DNA of 64,000 nucleotides from a virus: the IMG/VR virus record IMGVR_UViG_3300030110_004856, positions 1 to 64,000 of that record, one strand, 5' to 3'. The notes beneath the pieces are model-generated. The model was not told where the DNA came from and did no database searches. It was given only the letters and a program-made list of their open reading frames with translations. A program made the translations under genes and the position numbers. Below are positions 4,195 to 50,451 of this stretch, one piece after another. How positions within the stretch are numbered: the first letter of the stretch is position 1; each line of letters begins with the position of its first letter.

Positions 4195-4731
4195 ATGACT
4201 ACTTCAAACCTTGAGGAAATTCTTCAGGCTGTAGCGGCTCCCACGGAGGAGGTTGTCACTGAAGAAGTTGTCATCGTAAAGGAAGCAAGCATCGACAACT
4301 TTATTTTTAAGCTTGTCGAGTTTGCTTCCTACAACTACCAGCTCAATATTCAAGCGCACATGCTGCACTTGAATCTGGAATCACCAAACTTTTTGGCACT
4401 GCATAGGTTTCTGAGGAAACAGTACCATCAGCACCTTGAAGATTTTGACACCATCGCTGAGCTTGTGCGCTCCATGGACTACCTCATGCCTATGTGTGGC
4501 AAAGGTCTCCTAGGTGCATGCAAAGATTTCAAACATGTAAAGAGCTATGACGCCACGGAGAGTTTGGTTCGATATACCAAAAATCTAGAGAACGGTGGCT
4601 ACATGGCTAAAGACTTGTACGTCATGGCCAGAGAATGTGAGTGCCCTGATGGAGAAAACGAAATCTCTCAGATCGTCAATCACATGTTCAAGTCCGCGTG
4701 GAAGATGAAATCGACTCTAAGAACCAATTAG
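4195..4731 (+). CDS. Dps/ferritin-like protein, 178 aa
   Basis: Residues 50-95 match the Dps ferroxidase region. His58, His70, Asp85 and Glu89 have the exact spacing of E. coli Dps His51, His63, Asp78 and Glu82 (12, 15 and 19 residues), within 'HLNLESPNFLALHRFL' and 'DFDTIAEL'. Dps proteins form 12-mers that oxidise and store iron and often bind DNA. Length (178) fits the family. The N-terminal extension is acidic rather than the Lys-rich DNA-binding tail, so iron or peroxide handling is more likely than DNA compaction. A virion role cannot be excluded. The 3' end overlaps the convergent fibre-like gene by 4 bases. Confidence 0.75.
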   Translation: MTTSNLEEILQAVAAPTEEVVTEEVVIVKEASIDNFIFKLVEFASYNYQLNIQAHMLHLNLESPNFLALHRFLRKQYHQHLEDFDTIAELVRSMDYLMPMCGKGLLGACKDFKHVKSYDATESLVRYTKNLENGGYMAKDLYVMARECECPDGENEISQIVNHMFKSAWKMKSTLRTN

Positions 4732-41257: not shown

Positions 41258-41833
41258 GTGGATCTATGTAACCCACGCCGCTATAGTGACAGCGACTTAA
41301 TCACCTCTTCTGTGTCTATTCTTCCTGATCATCAGATTCAAATTCTGTGTAATGCAGGAATGATCAGTCCATACGATCCAGAGTTAGTTAATCCAGCATC
41401 ACTCGATGTCAGATTGGGTAACGAGTTGATGGTTGAACAGGAAGAACATGAGCAGATGAGGAAGCTGTCGATTGAGAAATTCGATCGAGATTCACCTTTC
41501 TATTTGTACCCAGGGGAGTTTGTACTCGCTCATACGATGGAAACATTCAAAGTTCCATCGAACGTAACAGGACAGTTTGCACTCAAGTCATCGACAGCAC
41601 GTTCAGGCTTTGAGCATCTGATGGCTGGCTACATAGATCCAGGCTTTTGGAATTCTGTCCTGACTCTGGAACTTAAGAACGCTCGTCAGATGGCACCGAT
41701 TCCAATGTGGCCTGGTATGAGGATTGGGCAAATTGTATGGACTCGCATGCAAGCACCGCCCACCAAAACCTACCGAGAGACAGGCAGGTACAACAACGAC
41801 CCCACCGTTACTACCACCAAAGGCTGGTTGTAG
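41258..41833 (+). CDS. dcd: dCTP deaminase
   Basis: Contains the family blocks 'NPASLDVRLGNEL', 'YPGEFVLAHTMETF', 'KSSTARSGFEHLMAGYIDPG' and 'PGMRIGQIVW'. The enzyme turns dCTP into dUTP, feeding dTTP synthesis, and pairs logically with ThyX at 60559. A GTG start at 41258 is given; GTG at 41312 (MSILPDHQ) fits the usual family N-terminus better and would give 173 residues. Confidence 0.88.
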   Translation: MDLCNPRRYSDSDLITSSVSILPDHQIQILCNAGMISPYDPELVNPASLDVRLGNELMVEQEEHEQMRKLSIEKFDRDSPFYLYPGEFVLAHTMETFKVPSNVTGQFALKSSTARSGFEHLMAGYIDPGFWNSVLTLELKNARQMAPIPMWPGMRIGQIVWTRMQAPPTKTYRETGRYNNDPTVTTTKGWL

Positions 41834-41961
41834 TGATCACATAGTGATACCGAAATCCAACTGGGTATTTCCCTAACTCTTTTCAACGCGAGATTTCTTG
41901 ACAGAATGGCGCAGCCTTTGTGCTGTGTAAAGTGTTCAGCAGTTTATTAACTATTTGAGCT

Positions 41962-42111
41962 TTATACAAAGTTTAGATTGCGCGACAATTTGTCAAGTTT
42001 CTCTTTGTTATAGAAGTTTTTAAGAATACCCTTCTGGACTTCGGGACGCACTGTTGTTTCCAGTGAGACCCATGAGTCAGGAGTTTTATCTTGACCAACC
42101 CTTGACGCCAT
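41962..42111 (-). CDS. Candidate small protein, 49 aa
   Basis: ATG at 42111 opens a frame of protein-like composition (MASRVGQDKTPDSWVSLET and ending KLSRNLNFV) in an otherwise gene-free 340-base gap, on the strand opposite to its neighbours. The AGGAG upstream is too close to the ATG to be ideal. The rest of 41834-42173 shows only a promoter candidate. Confidence 0.4.
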   Translation of the reverse strand: MASRVGQDKTPDSWVSLETTVRPEVQKGILKNFYNKEKLDKLSRNLNFV

Positions 42112-42130
42112 GCTCCTATGGCTCTAGGAT
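42102..42130 (+). promoter_or_regulatory. Candidate promoter for the RavA/ViaA-like operon
   Basis: TTGACG at 42102-42107, 17 bases, TAGGAT at 42125-42130. It lies about 44 bases upstream of the ATG at 42174, which has a GGAG site six bases away. Good spacing and -35, moderate -10. Confidence 0.5.
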
Positions 42131-42173
42131 TTATACACGCCTCAACTGAGGCACACATCATTTCGGAGATCAA

Positions 42174-42641
42174 ATGACTAGACACACCCAGATCAGACGG
42201 CGAGGGCAGGCAGTAGCTGACTGCTTCTGTGAGCTACAGGAGATCATCGACTCGTCCGAGCCTTTCGCGAACGCTTTGGATGAAGCGAAGCAAGAGCTGC
42301 TCGAAGTCTTGAACGACGAGTCAGTGATCGAAGGCGAAGTGAGTCTCGACGATTACAAAGGAGATGACTCCGCGTTTAAGTACCCTGAGCAAGGGCTGAA
42401 CATTGTCCTTCAGCCGAAGTATGTTCTGGTGCTCAACTCTGATGTTCTTGAGCCAAAGGCAATGACCTTGGCTAAAGAACGCATCGCTCGACATGAGTCT
42501 GCACTCAAGAAAGCGAAGCTTGATCTGAAGAACGAAGAGGAGAAGCTCGTGGTCACAGGCAAAGCCACGCGCTGCGTCAAGTCGTTTGGACTGGCGCTCC
42601 GCAAGATTGCCAAGCTCGTCACACCCATGGAGATCGACTGA
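42174..42641 (+). CDS. Unknown first gene of the AAA/VWA operon, 155 aa
   Basis: Helical ends and a central acidic region. C-terminal coiled-coil-like segment (residues about 100-128, 'LAKERIARHESALKKAKLDL'). Its stop shares a base with the next ATG (42641), tying it to the DUF3150-like and ATPase genes. No family recognised. Confidence 0.7.
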   Translation: MTRHTQIRRRGQAVADCFCELQEIIDSSEPFANALDEAKQELLEVLNDESVIEGEVSLDDYKGDDSAFKYPEQGLNIVLQPKYVLVLNSDVLEPKAMTLAKERIARHESALKKAKLDLKNEEEKLVVTGKATRCVKSFGLALRKIAKLVTPMEID

Positions 42642-43852
42642 TGACCAACGATGTGTTTCTGCTGAACGTCACAGTGTCCAGCAAGGTGCGCCAGACCATT
42701 CAATTCAAGATGAAGGATCTGCAACTACCGCACCAAACTATTGAAACTCTCGAAGAGCATGGTGCGGTCAGTATCAGACCAAACCTATCGAACCTGCTCA
42801 AAGAGTTTCTGAGCGAGCTGCGCCTGGAGCAGAGCAAGATCTATTTAGATCATTGCATCAGCCACGGCGAAAGCCACTTCTTGATGGCTCACCACTTCAC
42901 TGATGCCATGGCTCAGATCAGAGCAATGCGCAGCCGTCTCAACGCTATGAACGAAGCACTAGCAGTTGAGTGGTACTCAGAAATGCGACGGTGGGAAAAG
43001 ATGGTGAACAAAACCATCGAACCTTTGTTCGCTGATCCTGAATCACAGGAGCTAGTTAAGGCTGCCTACATGAATGTCTTCCCTGAGAAGGAAGCATTCG
43101 CCAAAGCAATCGAGATCGATGTTGTTGGTCCTCTTCCTGTGTCTTTAGATGTGGCTTCGTCTCCTGGTGACACCCTTCAGGAGCAGATGGCATACGAAGC
43201 AGCTTGCAACACCCAAGCTGTCTATACCGCTGCCCAAAAGAATGCAAAAGACAAAGCTCTCAAACGATTTGCAGTCTTCATTGACGATCTAGACATTCGC
43301 ATCAGCACCAATGTCGGCGATCGTCAGACTGGTGGCAACTCCGATCGACGTGGGTCATGGGAGGTAGCAGCAGAAGAACTGGCAGTTATTGCTGACCACG
43401 TGCCTGGCTTGGATCTTGTAAAAGAAATCACTCACAACATCCTGAACCAAGGACGCAGGATGAAGAACAGCAAACTGAGTGCTCGCGAACGTAGCGAAGC
43501 ATTTACAGCCTTCAATCGTTTACGAGAAGAGTTGAGAACAGAGCTAACAACAATCGTTGGAAGATCTGAATCCACTGAGGGAATGCAAGCTCTGCAAACT
43601 TCACTCTCTGTCACCAGTGAGTATCAAAACATTTTGTCTGGCATGAAACATTGCGAGACAAACCAACAACTAGAAGAAATTCTCTTGCAAGCTGAGACTT
43701 TCACTCTTTGTAGTAATCAAAGAGTCAAGGCAATTAACCAAGCAGCTCAAAGACAAAGGGAATTCATTGCGGCAAAGCATGTTAGTGTAGACCAGGAGCT
43801 AGAGACTATTGAAGAAATTAAAAACCAATCAGAGGAAGACATTGACTTCTAA
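42641..43852 (+). CDS. DUF3150-like protein, 403 aa
   Basis: Begins 'VFLLNVTVSSKVRQTI', then 'QLPHQTIETLEEHGAVSI', a long helical body and 'EWYSEMRRWEKMVN', a layout like DUF3150 proteins, which are often encoded beside MoxR/CobS-type ATPases and VWA proteins in plasmids and phages. Suggests a third component of the ATPase system. Identity is pattern-based. Confidence 0.55.
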   Translation: MTNDVFLLNVTVSSKVRQTIQFKMKDLQLPHQTIETLEEHGAVSIRPNLSNLLKEFLSELRLEQSKIYLDHCISHGESHFLMAHHFTDAMAQIRAMRSRLNAMNEALAVEWYSEMRRWEKMVNKTIEPLFADPESQELVKAAYMNVFPEKEAFAKAIEIDVVGPLPVSLDVASSPGDTLQEQMAYEAACNTQAVYTAAQKNAKDKALKRFAVFIDDLDIRISTNVGDRQTGGNSDRRGSWEVAAEELAVIADHVPGLDLVKEITHNILNQGRRMKNSKLSARERSEAFTAFNRLREELRTELTTIVGRSESTEGMQALQTSLSVTSEYQNILSGMKHCETNQQLEEILLQAETFTLCSNQRVKAINQAAQRQREFIAAKHVSVDQELETIEEIKNQSEEDIDF

Positions 43853-43949
43853 CACTTACCCCTGGTTACGAGCAGCAAAGACCATTGACGGACCTTACCG
43901 TCGCCCACGCTTCTCTTTCATTAAACGACTTCTCGCTTTATTCACATGA
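43842..43949 (+). CDS. Candidate 35-aa coupled peptide
   Basis: TTG at 43842 inside the end of the previous gene opens a frame that stops in an ATGA overlap with the ATPase start at 43946. The product is basic (SNTYPWLRAAKTIDGPYRRP, then FIKRLLALFT). It may serve translational coupling or be a small partner. Low certainty because of the TTG start. Confidence 0.35.
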   Translation: MTSNTYPWLRAAKTIDGPYRRPRFSFIKRLLALFT

Positions 43950-45139
43950 ACACGCAACTTTTCAAAAAGTTCCAAAACTTCCGCTCTCAGCTCAACAGCA
44001 GATTCCTAGAGCGAGAGACAGTCATCGATGGACTTCTTGCTTCGTTAATCACAAAGCAAAATGCTTTCTTGTTCGGTGTCCCTGGTACAGGTAAGTCAGA
44101 ACTCGTCAGAGCAATCAGCAGTGGCTTCAAAGGAACTGAATACTTTGGCTATCTACTGAGCCCTACTACTGATCCGTCAGAGTTGTTTGGCCCTGTGGCT
44201 GTGAGCAAACTCCTGAAGGACGAGTACACAAGAGACACTGAGGGTTACTTGCCTTCAGCGAACATCGCGTTTCTTGATGAGCTGTTCAGAGGATCATCTG
44301 CTGTGCTCAACAGCCTGCTGACAATCCTCAACGAGCGCACATTCAACAACGGCAAAGAGGTTGTTAAGACACCAATCAACAGCATCGTTGCAGCTACTAA
44401 CTCATTCCCAACTGAAGAAAGTCTGCAAGCTTTCCTGGATCGTTTCTTGTTCAGACCTACGGTTGATCTACTTCAGAAACCAGTCAGCAAAAGGAAGCTA
44501 GACATGTGGTCGCTGGGTATTGAACCGCGCCCAGAGATTTTCTCAGCTCTGACTCAGGAAGATCTTGTAGAACTACAGGAACAAGCAGCCTGCATCAAAC
44601 CAACATCCAAGTTTGCTGGATTGTTTGGTGATGTCATGGAACGATTAGAGGTCAGTGGCATCTACATCTCTGACCGTCGTCGCGTACAGATCATTCAGTT
44701 CTTGCGTGGTTATGCGGTTGTCAAAGGTGAGAGCGAACTACATCCTCACATCCTGCTAGAGACTCTTCCGCACATCCTTTACCAAAGCGACGACGACAAA
44801 GAGATTATTCGCGAGCAGTTGGATGCAGCCATTGTCACTGGCAGTCGTTTCGTTAAAGAGAATCAGCATGCTGCAAACAGCATCATGCATGAGTTCTATA
44901 GCTGGGACGCTAAAGCCAGGACGATCAGCGATACGAAAATGCACATGGACGTGGCTCGCAACATGAGCAAGTGTCTGAGTGATCTGACAACCATTCAAAA
45001 ACGTCTTACTGAAGCAATGGACGATGACGAACTAAAAATCACTGAAGAAGTGCGACTCAAAATGATGAAGCAACACACTCAGAACGACAGCGACATGAAG
45101 ACCATTGCCAAATCACTGACTCGTTTCACAACTAATTGA
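43946..45139 (+). CDS. RavA-like MoxR AAA+ ATPase, 397 aa
   Basis: Walker A 'GVPGTGKS' at residues 44-51, Walker B 'FLDEL' at 109-113, and the RavA-type blocks 'SELFGP' (78-83), 'EGYLPSANIAFLDELF' and 'LTILNERTFNNG', then sensor 'AATNSFP'. RavA is a MoxR AAA+ chaperone that works with the VWA protein ViaA. E. coli RavA has about 500 residues; the C-terminal LARA part seems missing here. Directly followed by the VWA gene with one base between. Confidence 0.85.
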   Translation: MNTQLFKKFQNFRSQLNSRFLERETVIDGLLASLITKQNAFLFGVPGTGKSELVRAISSGFKGTEYFGYLLSPTTDPSELFGPVAVSKLLKDEYTRDTEGYLPSANIAFLDELFRGSSAVLNSLLTILNERTFNNGKEVVKTPINSIVAATNSFPTEESLQAFLDRFLFRPTVDLLQKPVSKRKLDMWSLGIEPRPEIFSALTQEDLVELQEQAACIKPTSKFAGLFGDVMERLEVSGIYISDRRRVQIIQFLRGYAVVKGESELHPHILLETLPHILYQSDDDKEIIREQLDAAIVTGSRFVKENQHAANSIMHEFYSWDAKARTISDTKMHMDVARNMSKCLSDLTTIQKRLTEAMDDDELKITEEVRLKMMKQHTQNDSDMKTIAKSLTRFTTN

Positions 45140-45140
45140 C

Positions 45141-46685
45141 ATGACTAATTCTTTTAAATCTGAGTTCATTCACCTCAGTGACAACGAGCCAATGGTGCTC
45201 AAAGTCTCTGCTCTGACTGACTTTCTTTGGTCAGACTACGTAAGGGATTCAGCTCCTCGCGTTAAGTACCTGACTTCTCACTACGACATCCGCAAGCTCA
45301 GTCGGTTTGGAAAGGAGTTGTTCGAAGCTTTGTACCAAGCAGAAAATCTCAGCCCAGTTATCTCACTGCAAGATGCTGAAGATTACTTTCGAGCTACTCA
45401 AAACGGAGAAGAACTTGAAGCTCCTGCTAATTACAAACCAGAGAATGCCTTCTGGATTGGTCTCTTGCAGGACGTGATGAACTCTCCTGGGTGGGGAATG
45501 ATTGCACCCATTTGCTACGGCAACCAGTTCAACTCTGGCAACAACGCCATCAGTATTCTCAACAAGCTTTCTGAATTGATCGATGAGTCAATCAACAACA
45601 GAGAGCTAGATCCCACAGCGTTGGGTGAAGCAGTAGATGAACTCAACGAATTGCGTAGACAGTTCGTGGAGGCGAAGAAGCAAGGAGACTTCCAGAAAGC
45701 GAAGGAACTCAGAGAGAAAGGCAAACAACTCGGTAAGAATATCGAGGAGTACCACAATAAGATGAGAGAGCAGATGCGTCCTGAGATTCAGGAAGCTGTC
45801 GACAAGGCTGCAGATGAAGCTCAACAAATCAACAAGGCGATGAGCCAGCTAGCTGGCGATCAAGCAGGGAACCACCAGCGTCAGAGTGTCGAGGAGAAGC
45901 AGCAACTCGCGAATCGTTTACGCAACAACAAAAAGCTTCTCGCCCTTGCCAATCGCCTTGGTGCCCTTCGTCGTACATGGAACCAGCGCAAGCGAGCAAG
46001 GAAAGGTAAAGCTAACTATTCGGACATCGTTGGAGTGAAGTTCGCTGACTCAGTGCCTCAAGCATTCCCTACCGAACTAGCACTGGCTGCCACGCCTGAG
46101 GGGAGGGCACTCTTTGCGATGAAGTACAACCAAAAGACAATCCTTTGCAAAGACTACGAAGCTCAAGTCAAGAACCTGGACAAGGGACCGATCATGATGT
46201 TCGTCGACATCTCTGGTTCGATGCAGGGTGATTCGGAGCTTTGGAGCAAAGCCATGGCTCTTGTCGTTGCAGAGGAAGCAGTCAAACAGAAACGTCCAGT
46301 ACACCTCGCTCTCTTTGACACACGCATAAAGAAGCACTTCATCTTTGATCCAGCATCGACAGACAAGGACAACCTCCTTAACTTCTGTCTCTCCTGGTCA
46401 TGTGACGGAGGAACCTCATTTAGCTCTGTGTTGAGTTACGCGATGGAAAACTTGGACCACTCTTCACGCGCTGACATCCTGCTAATCACAGACGGTCACG
46501 ACAATGTGAGCGAAGACTTACTGCAAGATTTTCACGAATGGAAGCAACTGTCAGGTGTGGAAATGAATTGTTTTTGTATCGGAGATATGAGTATCAACTT
46601 ACGATTGTTTGCAGACGATATCCGGGAAGTCGATGTCCACAACGATGCCGAGTCGTCTGATCTATTCCAAGACGTTCTTCTGTAA
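45141..46685 (+). CDS. ViaA-like VWA-domain protein, 514 aa
   Basis: C-terminal von Willebrand A domain with intact MIDAS: Asp356, Ser358 and Ser360 ('FVDISGSMQG'), Thr425 ('GGTSFSS') and Asp451 ('LITDGH'). The helical N-terminal two thirds include a long coiled-coil-rich stretch (about 165-265). Size, domain order and pairing with a RavA-like ATPase match ViaA (483 aa) or CobT-like partners. Metal-dependent binding to a substrate protein that the ATPase then remodels is the expected role. Confidence 0.85.
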   Translation: MTNSFKSEFIHLSDNEPMVLKVSALTDFLWSDYVRDSAPRVKYLTSHYDIRKLSRFGKELFEALYQAENLSPVISLQDAEDYFRATQNGEELEAPANYKPENAFWIGLLQDVMNSPGWGMIAPICYGNQFNSGNNAISILNKLSELIDESINNRELDPTALGEAVDELNELRRQFVEAKKQGDFQKAKELREKGKQLGKNIEEYHNKMREQMRPEIQEAVDKAADEAQQINKAMSQLAGDQAGNHQRQSVEEKQQLANRLRNNKKLLALANRLGALRRTWNQRKRARKGKANYSDIVGVKFADSVPQAFPTELALAATPEGRALFAMKYNQKTILCKDYEAQVKNLDKGPIMMFVDISGSMQGDSELWSKAMALVVAEEAVKQKRPVHLALFDTRIKKHFIFDPASTDKDNLLNFCLSWSCDGGTSFSSVLSYAMENLDHSSRADILLITDGHDNVSEDLLQDFHEWKQLSGVEMNCFCIGDMSINLRLFADDIREVDVHNDAESSDLFQDVLL

Positions 46686-47114
46686 ATGACTGCCCCCACG
46701 GCTGAAGCACTAAAAGACGTGCTGACGATTGCAGCTAAATACAAAACACTTCAGGAAGTTCCCATGACCCTCCTTGAATGGATTTCTGACATCATCATTG
46801 CTGAGCTGTTTGATCCAGACCGTCATCCAAACGTCGCTGTCTTCGAAGCAAAAGATGCAAAGCTCTCTTACTTCCCACACCTCCACACCTTTAACATCCT
46901 TATCTATACAACCGACAAAGGGAACGCAAGAGAAGTGTCTCTACCCCTCAGCGTGGCTCTTGAAGAGACGATTGGTTGTAGCGACGTACTAGAAGCAAAG
47001 AAGAATCTTAAATTTATGAAGTCTGATTGCGGTTCAATAGCTCAAGAGATGCAGACTAGGATAAACAATGCGCTGTATATCCATTCACGCACTTGGAAAA
47101 TATTTGATTGTTAG
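46686..47114 (+). CDS. Unknown last gene of the AAA/VWA operon, 142 aa
   Basis: Begins immediately after the VWA stop. Alpha/beta composition with 'MTLLEWISDIIIAELF' and 'FNILIYTTDKG'. No recognised motif; probably part of the same functional unit because of zero spacing. Confidence 0.65.
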   Translation: MTAPTAEALKDVLTIAAKYKTLQEVPMTLLEWISDIIIAELFDPDRHPNVAVFEAKDAKLSYFPHLHTFNILIYTTDKGNAREVSLPLSVALEETIGCSDVLEAKKNLKFMKSDCGSIAQEMQTRINNALYIHSRTWKIFDC

Positions 47115-47124
47115 TTCTGCCCTG

Positions 47125-47153
47125 TTGCATCAATGAATTTGTTTCACTATAAA
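47125..47153 (+). promoter_or_regulatory. Strong candidate sigma70 promoter
   Basis: TTGCAT at 47125-47130, 17 bases, TATAAA at 47148-47153; the ATG at 47174 follows a leader of about 14 bases. It suggests separate expression of the gene at 47174 from the VWA operon. Confidence 0.65.
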
Positions 47154-47173
47154 GGTGCAGCTCTTTCATTCAA

Positions 47174-47956
47174 ATGCAGATCCTTTACAAGCTAGGGAGT
47201 CTCGACCTAGACAAGCATGAAGTGAAGACTCTTTTGTCTCACGCAACAGATGAGATCTCAATCACAGTTGATCTCAAAAAGCATCTCCGAGGACTGGACT
47301 CCAAAGCTCTCTTCGCTGAGGCAGTAGAAGCAAAGGACACTCGTCTAGCCACGCTGGCAGCCAAGCTGGCAATGGAAGGTGGCCGGAAGTTCAACCCTGC
47401 TAGGAAACGTAGTTATAGGAAGACGGGTGAAAAATCTGTCCTTCACGCCAAGATCATTGACCAGGACCCTTTTGAGTCACTGGAGGAGATTCTGAGCAAA
47501 AACTCTCTGAAGAACGTTGGTGCTGCAATGATCCTCAACTCTCTGGAGGATGGAGACCGTCGATCACTTCGCGAGATTGCAGAAGATGTCGTCAACCATA
47601 TGGAGAAGTTCAGTCACAACTCACCTGATGATTCTCCTCGTCTCTTCCGTGGTTTCGAGAAGACGCGCCATGGGTTCATCGCTCTCATGAAGCCACAAAA
47701 GAAAGGTCAGTGCCAGTACCACCACGCTCCTGTCTACACCGCACTGCGTGACGGTCTCAAATACTTGGCCACTGTTGGTTTGGTAGACATCAAGAGCGAG
47801 AAGACATACGGTGCTCTAGACAAGAAGAAGAACAATAACGCAGGCCATCTCCATCGCAATGTGTATACCATCGCGCTTAGCAAAGGTGGTATGACTCTGA
47901 TGCGTAACTGGAACGACAGTGACGATTACATCAGCGGCTTCTGGAAACAGCGGTAG
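47174..47956 (+). CDS. Hypothetical protein, 260 aa
   Basis: Basic, mainly helical protein; middle part 'MILNSLEDGDRRSLREIAED' and C-terminal 'YTALRDGLKYLATVGLVDIK' look like winged-helix pieces, so DNA binding is possible. Bounded by its own promoter and the terminator at 47978, so it may be monocistronic. No family recognised. Confidence 0.6.
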   Translation: MQILYKLGSLDLDKHEVKTLLSHATDEISITVDLKKHLRGLDSKALFAEAVEAKDTRLATLAAKLAMEGGRKFNPARKRSYRKTGEKSVLHAKIIDQDPFESLEEILSKNSLKNVGAAMILNSLEDGDRRSLREIAEDVVNHMEKFSHNSPDDSPRLFRGFEKTRHGFIALMKPQKKGQCQYHHAPVYTALRDGLKYLATVGLVDIKSEKTYGALDKKKNNNAGHLHRNVYTIALSKGGMTLMRNWNDSDDYISGFWKQR

Positions 47957-47977
47957 ACTGAAAGCGGAGTATGCTTC

Positions 47978-48008
47978 GAGCGGTTCTGGAGGGGGCCGCT
48001 CTTTTTTT
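47978..48008 (+). terminator. Terminator whose loop holds the RBS of the next gene
   Basis: GAGCGG (47978-47983) pairs with CCGCTC (47996-48001) around a 12-base loop, then seven T (48002-48008), immediately followed by the ATG at 48009. The loop contains GGAGGGGG, the only Shine-Dalgarno-like sequence for the HNH gene. Confidence 0.75.
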
Positions 48009-48530
48009 ATGGCAAAGCATCTACCTATTCCCACTGACATCGGTGACTACCTGGAGGTCGATCGCAGCATCCCTTCTGGTCTGCGGTGGAAAGTCTCACG
48101 AGGAAGGGTAAGAGCAGGACAACCGGCTTGCTTCCTTTACTATTGGAAACCTGTTTTATATGCGGTCAGGTTCAGAAAAAAGACATATCTTTCTCATCGA
48201 GTAATTTTCTTTCTTGAGACTGGGCAAGACCCAGGAGACCTAGAAATAGACCATCAGAACCACGGCGATAACAGGGATGAATTACGCCTAGTCACTAGGC
48301 GTCAGAACAGTATGAACATCCGCATACCAAAAAGAAACCAGTCAGGTTTCAAAGGAGTGTCTTGGGCAAGAAAAGAATCAAAGTGGAGAGCCCGGATCGT
48401 CGTTAGCTACAGGAAGAAACATCTGGGTTATTTCGACAGTCGCCTCGATGCCGCGTGGGCGTACAACCAAGCAGCTATTGAATACTACGGCGAGTTCGCT
48501 AAGCTCAACGTGCTACTAGTCCAGCTCTGA
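48009..48530 (+). CDS. HNH-AP2 homing endonuclease, 173 aa
   Basis: Start at ATG 48009 (MAKHLPIPTD); an upstream ATG would read through the terminator. HNH core 'LSHRVIFFLETG' and 'LEIDHQNHGDNRDELRLVT', then an AP2 DNA-binding domain ('SGFKGVSWARKESKWRARI' ... 'LGYFDSRLDAAWAYNQAA'). Such free-standing nucleases spread into phage genes; this one sits 10 bases upstream of the DNA polymerase, a common target. Confidence 0.88.
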   Translation: MAKHLPIPTDIGDYLEVDRSIPSGLRWKVSRGRVRAGQPACFLYYWKPVLYAVRFRKKTYLSHRVIFFLETGQDPGDLEIDHQNHGDNRDELRLVTRRQNSMNIRIPKRNQSGFKGVSWARKESKWRARIVVSYRKKHLGYFDSRLDAAWAYNQAAIEYYGEFAKLNVLLVQL

Positions 48531-48540
48531 TTCTTATCAA

Positions 48541-50451
48541 ATGGCACACACTGTCTCGTACATCGTCGCTGACGATGCAGCTCTTGCAGCACTTACAGAG
48601 CTAGAGAACTTTCCTAAGGTCTGTTTAGATCTTGAGACGACAGGTCTAGATGCAAGGATTGCTCGCCCACGCCTGGTGCAGCTGTGTGACTCATCCCCAC
48701 AGGCTGAGAGTCGTGTCGTCTATGTTTTCGACTTGTTCAAAGTTTCCGAGGATGTAACCAGCAAACTGCTCGCCCTCATCGAGAGCAGGGAAATGTTGAT
48801 TGGGCACAACCTCTACTTTGATTTGCAGTTCCTGCTGGCTATGGGACTGGACTACAAAGGCAAGATTTTCTGCACGATGATCGCAGAAAGATGCCTTCGA
48901 GCCGGATTTAAAGAAAAGAAATTCAGCCCCAAAATCCAGAAGGCTTATTTTGCAGACATATCCAACAGCCTCAAGGCAGTAGCAGAAAGACGACTTGACC
49001 TTGAGCTAGATAAAAGTCAGCAGGTAAGTGACTGGTCGAAGGAAGAACTCGACACTGAACAGGTGGAATACGCAGCTGGTGACGTAGCAATTCTTCCACA
49101 GATTGCATCGCTTCAACTCGCCGAACTTACAGAAGAGAACCTTCTCCCCGTCTTTGGTTTGGAGAGTAAAATCATCAGCACTGTCGCTAAGATGTCATAT
49201 ACAGGCTTTAATGTAGATGTCACTAAGCTGAAAGCATTAGAAGCTAGGATCAAACAGGAACTTGACGAACTCACTACACTATTTTGTGAAGACCTTGATC
49301 GCAGGTTGCCAGATGAATCCAAACTCTCGCGAGACATATCTGGAGCTATTTCAGTCTCAAAGAATGCGCGAAAAGGGTTTAACCCTGGATCCGGTGCCCA
49401 AGTCCTCAAGTGCTTCGACGCAATCGGAATTGAGACGCCTCGAAGTATTACATCTGGAAAACCAACGCTGTCTCAGGTAGAGCTAGCAGAATTTAATAGT
49501 CAAGATGAAACACTCCTCCTCTACAGAAAAAGAACGAAAGTCGAAACGAAGCTTGGGCACGTTCAAAAGCTTCTTGATAACATTCATCCTCTCAGTGGAC
49601 GTATACATTCTGGCTATCGTCAGTACGGGAGTAATAGCGGGCGTTTCACTAGTTCAGGCAGTAAACGAGTCGCTGCCTCAAAAGTCAAAAGTGAATTTGC
49701 AATAAACTGTCAGCAGGTTCCACGAGAGAAAGCATTCAGAGAGTGCTTCGTTGCCACGCCTGGATTCAAACTTGTCGTCTGTGATTTCAGCCAAATCGAA
49801 CTGCGTCTAGGTGCAGAACTCATTCCTATCCCGCAAATGCTGAACGCATTCCTTGACGGGAAAGACTTACACACGGTTACTGCAAGTCTGATTTACCAAT
49901 GCGACTTCAATGAAGTCACAAAAGAACAGAGACAGAGTGGAAAAACTATGAACTTTGCCTTGTTATACGGAATGGGTTATAAAAAATATAGAACATACAG
50001 TGCACAGAGCGGTACAGTTCTCTCCTACTCGGAAGCTAAACTTGAACACGCTGCTTTCCATAGAGCTTATCCAGCGTTGAAGAGCTGGCACAAGAATATG
50101 GCTGATTTAGTCTCCGATGGCTGGACATATAGCAGAACAGCTACAGGAAGAAGGAGATTGCTGAGTTACGACGACGCCTCGATGATGGTTGCCTGTAACA
50201 ACATCATTCAAGGAGCTGGAGCTGACATTTTAAAAATCGCTTTGTCTTACCTCGTCGAGCACTTAAACGATGAGTGCAGGCTTATTGCCTGTGTTCATGA
50301 TGAAATTGTAATCGAGGCTAAAGAACACAAAGTTGATCATTACAGAGCAATTCTGGAAGACTGCATGAAGCGAGGTGGCGAAAAAATCTTGAAAGAAGTA
50401 CCAGTATTGGCTGACGCTGCTACAGGAAACAACTGGGCAGAAGCAAAATAA
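48541..50451 (+). CDS. polA: Family A DNA polymerase with 3'-5' exonuclease
   Basis: Exonuclease motif I 'DLETTGL' (Asp30, Glu32). Polymerase motif A 'DFSQIELRLG' (Asp415), motif B 'RQSGKTMNFALLYG', motif C 'VHDE' (His586, Asp587). Position equivalent to E. coli 762 is Phe (NFA). The 5'-3' exonuclease domain is absent, as in phage polymerases of about 600 residues. Replicates the phage genome with the primase-helicase and SSB further on. Confidence 0.95.
   Translation: MAHTVSYIVADDAALAALTELENFPKVCLDLETTGLDARIARPRLVQLCDSSPQAESRVVYVFDLFKVSEDVTSKLLALIESREMLIGHNLYFDLQFLLAMGLDYKGKIFCTMIAERCLRAGFKEKKFSPKIQKAYFADISNSLKAVAERRLDLELDKSQQVSDWSKEELDTEQVEYAAGDVAILPQIASLQLAELTEENLLPVFGLESKIISTVAKMSYTGFNVDVTKLKALEARIKQELDELTTLFCEDLDRRLPDESKLSRDISGAISVSKNARKGFNPGSGAQVLKCFDAIGIETPRSITSGKPTLSQVELAEFNSQDETLLLYRKRTKVETKLGHVQKLLDNIHPLSGRIHSGYRQYGSNSGRFTSSGSKRVAASKVKSEFAINCQQVPREKAFRECFVATPGFKLVVCDFSQIELRLGAELIPIPQMLNAFLDGKDLHTVTASLIYQCDFNEVTKEQRQSGKTMNFALLYGMGYKKYRTYSAQSGTVLSYSEAKLEHAAFHRAYPALKSWHKNMADLVSDGWTYSRTATGRRRLLSYDDASMMVACNNIIQGAGADILKIALSYLVEHLNDECRLIACVHDEIVIEAKEHKVDHYRAILEDCMKRGGEKILKEVPVLADAATGNNWAEAK

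Follow-up and report, generated by a model that had tools for sequence, protein, structure and literature searches.

We describe a set of three adjacent genes in a 64,000-nucleotide stretch of viral DNA (positions 1 to 64,000 of the 81,584-base IMG/VR virus record IMGVR_UViG_3300030110_004856; hereafter the window). They encode, in order, a protein that we call g2, an AAA+ ATPase of the MoxR type and a protein with a VWA domain, and the same set recurs in related viral genomes and on cyanobacterial plasmids. Our favoured explanation, put forward tentatively, is that the three products work as a ternary AAA+ remodelling machine serving mobile elements and linked to DNA replication or maintenance. 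The clients of MoxR-VWA pairs are mostly unknown; here the gene next to the pair may code for a client or its adaptor, whose invariant C-terminal end could be deleted or mutated, so that client recognition would be directly testable. The same reasoning would extend to the unexplained DUF3150-CobT cluster of many conjugative IncC-type plasmids. A phage MoxR-VWA pair, moreover, need not be a virion-assembly factor, although the open-access literature that we found proposes no other role for such pairs in viruses.

The g2-MoxR-VWA set in phages and plasmids

The host of the window phage is likely to be a picocyanobacterium, because its terminase (52% identity), major capsid protein (68%) and portal (43%) are nearest to those of Synechococcus phage S-EIV1. 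The structural genes (terminase, portal, capsid) lie on the minus strand, and the plus strand carries a dCTP deaminase gene, the module, a family A DNA polymerase gene, an exonuclease gene and a primase gene. A preliminary description of this DNA had reported five co-directional open reading frames (ORFs) at 42174–47114, which we confirmed, and had suggested looking for the same gene order in other phages. With the g2 family as query, IMG/VR yielded 124 relatives, from which 80 loci were kept, and the viral counts given here rest on those. The ATPase gene follows g2 in all 80 loci and the VWA gene follows in turn in 79, the eightieth ending at a contig edge, and the genes are co-directional throughout. 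A further gene, g6, is present in all 68 loci where 2.5 kb or more of sequence follows the VWA gene, and the polymerase gene (polA) lies downstream in 66 of these. The place and content of the module are stable across about 40% protein identity. Compared with the nearest relative, each gene of the block has a ratio of non-synonymous to synonymous substitution rates (dN/dS) of 0.05–0.08, reflecting strong purifying selection, and these are therefore real and constrained genes. g2 is the constant third component of the module, which the preliminary description had missed, as it had the presence of the three genes on plasmids and the greater variation of the flanking genes g1 and g5, whose sequences are poorly conserved in comparison with g2, MoxR and VWA.

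The frequency of the module in the S-EIV1-like lineage is biased, since the contigs were mostly picked by the module itself. An S-EIV1-type terminase was also found on nine of ten module contigs of 69–87 kb and on one of two shorter ones. When ten contigs were picked by terminase instead, five carried the module, including the two longest, and the other five were shorter fragments. A first profile search of the genome contigs with the phage MoxR alignment gave nothing; a broader alignment succeeded. None of the three module profiles (g2, MoxR, VWA) matched S-EIV1 at E 10.

When plasmids were searched with the ATPase, the three genes turned up again, in unchanged order, on Acaryochloris marina plasmids pREC1 and pREC4 and Chroococcidiopsis plasmids pCHRO.01 and pA. 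The unannotated upstream proteins of these sets (442–469 residues) are full-length homologues of g2, with hhalign probabilities of 98–99.4% and E values of 1e-14 to 1e-20, against a background of at most 0.6% for 141 random cellular ORFs. A search with one plasmid g2 found seven plasmids, every one from Acaryochloris or Chroococcidiopsis; the annotated phage collection gave no match to the same query. The plasmid sets thus share with the phages the three genes, their order, g2 homology over the full length and the nearest MoxR in the tree, and in those of Acaryochloris a single nucleotide separates MoxR from VWA, the same spacing as in the window. They differ in that identity is at most 40%, g2 is longer, and no g1, g5, g6 or PolA was seen; none is annotated as a system. 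The occurrence of one three-gene set on phages and cyanobacterial plasmids suggests a job common to mobile DNA rather than the building of virus particles. On pREC1 a gene for a NACHT protein lies directly downstream of the set, and on the Chroococcidiopsis plasmids toxin-antitoxin genes of HigA type (and RelE type) lie between the MoxR and VWA genes (L288:5188-5953 and L299:5691-6824).

In the window g2 (42641–43852, plus strand) encodes 403 residues. The family is 35–42% identical over its whole length with no domain swaps, and the structural model (predicted local distance difference test, pLDDT, 82.7) consists of N-terminal strands followed by long helices. The C-terminal residue is invariably phenylalanine, in 80 of 80 phage proteins (as Asp-Phe in 78) and four of four plasmid proteins; the tail ahead of it is variable, and acidic in most phage proteins. 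Searches of the PDB by sequence and by fold gave no match. The preliminary description had listed a DUF3150-like gene; for g2 this label stands weakly by fold and by context and fails by sequence. Among the best Foldseek matches in BFVD, whose template modelling scores are only 0.36–0.53, is one to a protein bearing the name DUF3150 (E 1e-5, probability 1.0, template modelling score 0.36–0.46), whereas PF11348 gave no match at E 10 and hhalign a probability of 0.05%, which is background. Homology with DUF6744 was rejected for the same reason (0.07%, again background), and none was detected with gp148 (LPD29) of Aphanizomenon phage CL131. The gp94-gp95 pair of phage Dylan was also discarded as a further case, as the adjoining ATPase is a classical AAA protein and not a MoxR and the fold match is weak.

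Two other kinds of mobile element carry arrangements that resemble this one. Sets of DUF6744, MoxR and VWA are found in Moorella phage MTATph1 and on plasmids of Brevibacillus, Alicyclobacillus, Pseudanabaena and Streptomyces. They contain a related MoxR-VWA pair and a third protein of about 300–350 residues, and several lie near dnaN, ssb or helicase genes; unlike the window set, their third protein is not detectably related to g2 and the gene order varies. Two Pseudanabaena DUF6744 proteins end in Gly-Phe and the remainder lack a terminal phenylalanine. On IncC and related plasmids, DUF3150 lies directly upstream of a CobT-type VWA gene, with a CbbQ-type AAA gene, ssb, bet/RecT and an exonuclease or primase gene close by. 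Here too an AAA protein, a third protein ending in phenylalanine and a VWA protein occur together on mobile DNA, although the AAA protein has a CbbQ/NorQ C-terminus and the VWA protein is of CobT type. DUF3150 and g2 have no detectable sequence similarity, yet both adjoin the VWA gene or that of its ATPase and both end in phenylalanine: 10 of the 11 distinct DUF3150 proteins do so, compared with 11 of 744 background ORFs (1.5%), counts that are not independent, as sequences within these families are related. On IncC and other conjugative plasmids, DUF3150 (for example L304:9055-10332 and L291:5560-6741) nearly always has a terminal phenylalanine and is encoded beside a CobT-like VWA gene in the ssb-bet-exo or primase region.

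Relationship of the ATPase and VWA protein to known pairs

The ATPase gene (43946–45139, plus strand) encodes 397 residues with a core of RavA/bpMoxR type, as judged from Pfam, NCBIfam and PDB matches. The RavA-type blocks noted in the preliminary description are borne out: the motifs are intact (Walker A GVPGTGKS, Walker B FLDE, AATNS and SDRR), with Walker A kept in 80 of 80 viral loci, the protein scores 188 bits on PF20030 and 143 bits on the NCBIfam RavA model (cut-off 681), and its sole PDB matches are RavA chains (1e-38 with the single sequence, 6e-42 with the family profile). The 'bpMoxR' label of PF20030 cannot separate subfamilies, because E. coli RavA, run as a control, reaches 191 bits as well. 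The LARA region was rightly described as missing, since the LARA and RavA C-terminal models PF20265 and PF12592 matched the RavA control (135 and 83 bits) and neither matched the phage ATPase. In a quick tree, made without bootstrap like that of the VWA proteins, the phage ATPases form one clade (node value 100, starred), separate from the cellular RavA clade (97, starred) and from a clade of MoxRs of the beta-propeller ternary type (100, starred). Two cyanobacterial plasmid ATPases adjoin the phage clade in the first version of this tree, together with one very long row (95, starred), and lie next to it again when the longest rows are left out (94, unstarred). The phage ATPase therefore appears, on the sequence evidence, to be a MoxR core of RavA type that falls outside the cellular RavA clade. 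The preliminary description had held that its view would fail if the ATPase were a CobS with a CobT partner; the window proteins gave no match to CobT or CbbQ_C, whereas the IncC set matches both, and the window ATPase is not a CobS. RavA matches in 'phage' records of Campylobacter, Salmonella and Escherichia were not counted as phage genes, as they resemble host ravA-viaA; Campylobacter phage A11a (L039) and several of the Salmonella and Escherichia records hold ravA-viaA genes of enterobacterial appearance, probably through contamination with host DNA.

The VWA gene (45141–46685, plus strand) starts one nucleotide after the ATPase stop, in keeping with the close spacing noted before; the two genes overlap by four nucleotides in 42 of 79 viral pairs. 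Its product of 514 residues has a helical N-terminal part and a C-terminal VWA domain with a full metal ion-dependent adhesion site (MIDAS). The motif series DxSGSM...GGTxF...TDG is complete, the MIDAS residues D356, S358, S360, T425 and D451 are invariant in the alignment, and D.SGSM is found in 78 of 78 viral loci. The predicted structure has a confident VWA fold at residues 350–514 and a helical N-terminus of low confidence, with pLDDT below 50 in places. The claimed likeness to ViaA was also confirmed, in that the NCBIfam ViaA model (NF008230) matches with an E value of 4e-15 over 265 residues, far past the VWA domain. The protein resembles ViaA in having a MIDAS VWA domain C-terminal to a long helical part; its score of 56 bits is well below the equivalog cut-off of 500, and the tree joins the phage proteins with those of the plasmids (93, unstarred) and sets E. 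coli ViaA in a separate clade (96, starred).

The preliminary description of a RavA/ViaA-like pair in a phage was thus correct as far as the likeness goes, but the pair is not RavA-ViaA itself, since the phage proteins form their own clade nearest to plasmid-borne pairs. As in E. coli, a MoxR core is followed directly by a ViaA-like VWA protein and motifs are held in common. The window pair differs in having no LARA or RavA C-terminal domain, in lying outside both RavA-ViaA clades, in its constant third gene and in its setting in a replication block. Viral MoxR ATPases with a partner are already known from Acidianus two-tailed virus (ATV; p618-p892), Bacillus phage 0305phi8-36 (orf66/orf63) and group 2.2 jumbo phages. 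For ATV and the jumbo phages the partner is a VWA protein; p618 belongs to the ATV virion, and the jumbo-phage VWA protein is fused to a metallopeptidase (PMC4124505, PMC7824862). These pairs differ from that of the window in that no g2 has been reported with them, and the ATPase of ATV2 belongs to another lineage, being placed elsewhere in our tree on a very long branch. A MoxR-VWA pair is also annotated, without discussion, in the paper on Aphanizomenon phage CL131. Within the open-access literature we found no description of the g2 family, the ternary set, its sharing between cyanophages and plasmids or the C-terminal phenylalanine, and no paper on DUF3150, DUF6744 or the CobS/CobT-bet cluster. 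Viral MoxR-VWA pairs as such are therefore not new, whereas the ternary set with g2 appears to be, within that literature.

A proposed ternary remodelling machine and its rivals

MoxR proteins form hexamers, their VWA partners bind the client or the motor, often through the MIDAS, and the pair remodels specific complexes (PMC4124505, PMC7159879). Considering the window set in these terms, the ATPase would form a hexamer, the VWA protein would serve as its adaptor and g2 would be a dedicated client or client adaptor, whose tail ending in Asp-Phe might be held by the MIDAS of the VWA protein or threaded through the ATPase pore. Such a machine could, early in infection, remodel or mature a complex of proteins with which the element's DNA is replicated, recombined or maintained. 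It is consistent with this that some plasmids have dnaN or ssb next to DUF6744-MoxR-VWA, and that DUF3150-VWA(CobT) adjoins ssb, bet/RecT, exo or primase genes. Several points weigh against it. That g2, MoxR and VWA interact at all is a deduction. The link to replication is one of gene neighbourhood, and replication blocks also hold genes for counter-defence and host takeover. Some of the plasmid sets, those of Acaryochloris and Chroococcidiopsis, show no replication gene in the flanking sequence examined, phage S-EIV1 can replicate although it lacks the module, and the C-terminal phenylalanine counts derive in part from related sequences, most DUF6744 proteins lacking the residue. A wider claim would be that the g2, DUF6744 and DUF3150 sets form one functional class of machine carried by mobile elements, whose AAA-VWA pair grips the third protein by its terminal phenylalanine and so loads or recycles complexes for replication or recombination; we regard it as doubtful.

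Because phages and plasmids have enemies in common, the main rival is that the machine takes apart or inactivates a host complex met by both, such as a defence complex or a host polymerase. AAA+ MoxR-VWA pairs are remodelling machines, this module is carried by both phages and conjugative plasmids and lies in the early block, and its absence from S-EIV1 is what an accessory function would predict. Genes for counter-defence usually turn over fast, whereas the module is stable over about 40% identity and nearly always accompanied by g6 and PolA; with the low dN/dS there is also no sign of positive selection, and no meaningful PADLOC match was obtained, so that we consider such a role unlikely while keeping it under consideration. 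The preliminary description had named a host complex, defence against another system or a virion complex as targets, and the last of these fits poorly. Published proposals give both p618-p892 of ATV and the MoxR-vWA pair in group 2.2 jumbo phages a part in particle assembly (PMC4124505, PMC7824862), and by that precedent the window pair might mature a tail or other particle component. The module, however, lies with the dCTP deaminase, PolA, exonuclease and primase genes on the strand opposite terminase, portal and capsid, the three genes also occur on plasmids, which form no particles, S-EIV1 assembles a related capsid without them, and the ATPase of ATV2 is of another lineage. Assembly of the virion is therefore improbable.

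MoxR-vWA ternary conflict systems, including a type with a beta-propeller third component, were described by Kaur et al. (2020), and the ternary architecture here, the NACHT gene beside the pREC1 set and the toxin-antitoxin genes that split the Chroococcidiopsis copies would all suit a system by which elements defend themselves against competitors. A domain search found no beta-propeller in any of the five window genes, and no effector, peptidase, nuclease, VMAP or iSTAND domain was found in any component. The end-to-end conservation of g2 without domain swaps and the fixed place in the phage replication block likewise argue against a conflict system, which we think very improbable.

Transcription unit and neighbouring genes

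The gene block was originally thought to be transcribed from one promoter. A weak promoter-like site (TTGACG-17-TAGGAT, 42102–42130) does precede g1 and is the sole plus-strand match in 41800–48600; the count of such sites is below the shuffle mean, and that of terminators is also within chance. The unit probably comprises six genes, g1 to g6, rather than five, with g6 last in the phages, since a terminator-like hairpin of 10 bp with a tail of seven T residues (47978–48001, plus strand, from a hairpin scan) follows g6. The first gene, g1 (42174–42641, plus strand), encodes 155 residues, and an ORF of 130–195 residues lies just 5′ of g2 in 71 of 78 loci; it had no match in Pfam, NCBIfam or PADLOC and weak matches only in PHROG. 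The product of g5 (46686–47114, plus strand; 142 residues) is recognisable by sequence in the nearest relatives only, and g6 (47174–47956, plus strand) encodes 260 residues.

Beyond the module lies the family A polymerase gene (48541–50451, plus strand; 636 residues), whose product is only 22% identical to the S-EIV1 polymerase. Compared with a near relative (L002), the synonymous divergence of this gene is 0.08 against 0.31–0.45 for the genes upstream, which suggests that polA has recently been replaced or gene-converted. A gene resembling HNH/AP2 homing endonucleases lies between g6 and the polymerase gene (47919–48530) and is absent from L002. Simple circularity of the contig was rejected: its last 30 bases recur at 75–104, but there is no clean terminal repeat. 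Two terminase large subunits of about 850 residues, that of S-EIV1 (L043:4080-6620) and one on the contig of L192, align with the window terminase as two segments separated by a large insert, and these inserts are probably inteins. A gene at 4195–4731 of the window encodes a protein 43% identical to a DNA-binding ferritin-like (Dps-type) protein of S-EIV1, and is possibly a stress-protection gene of this cyanophage lineage.

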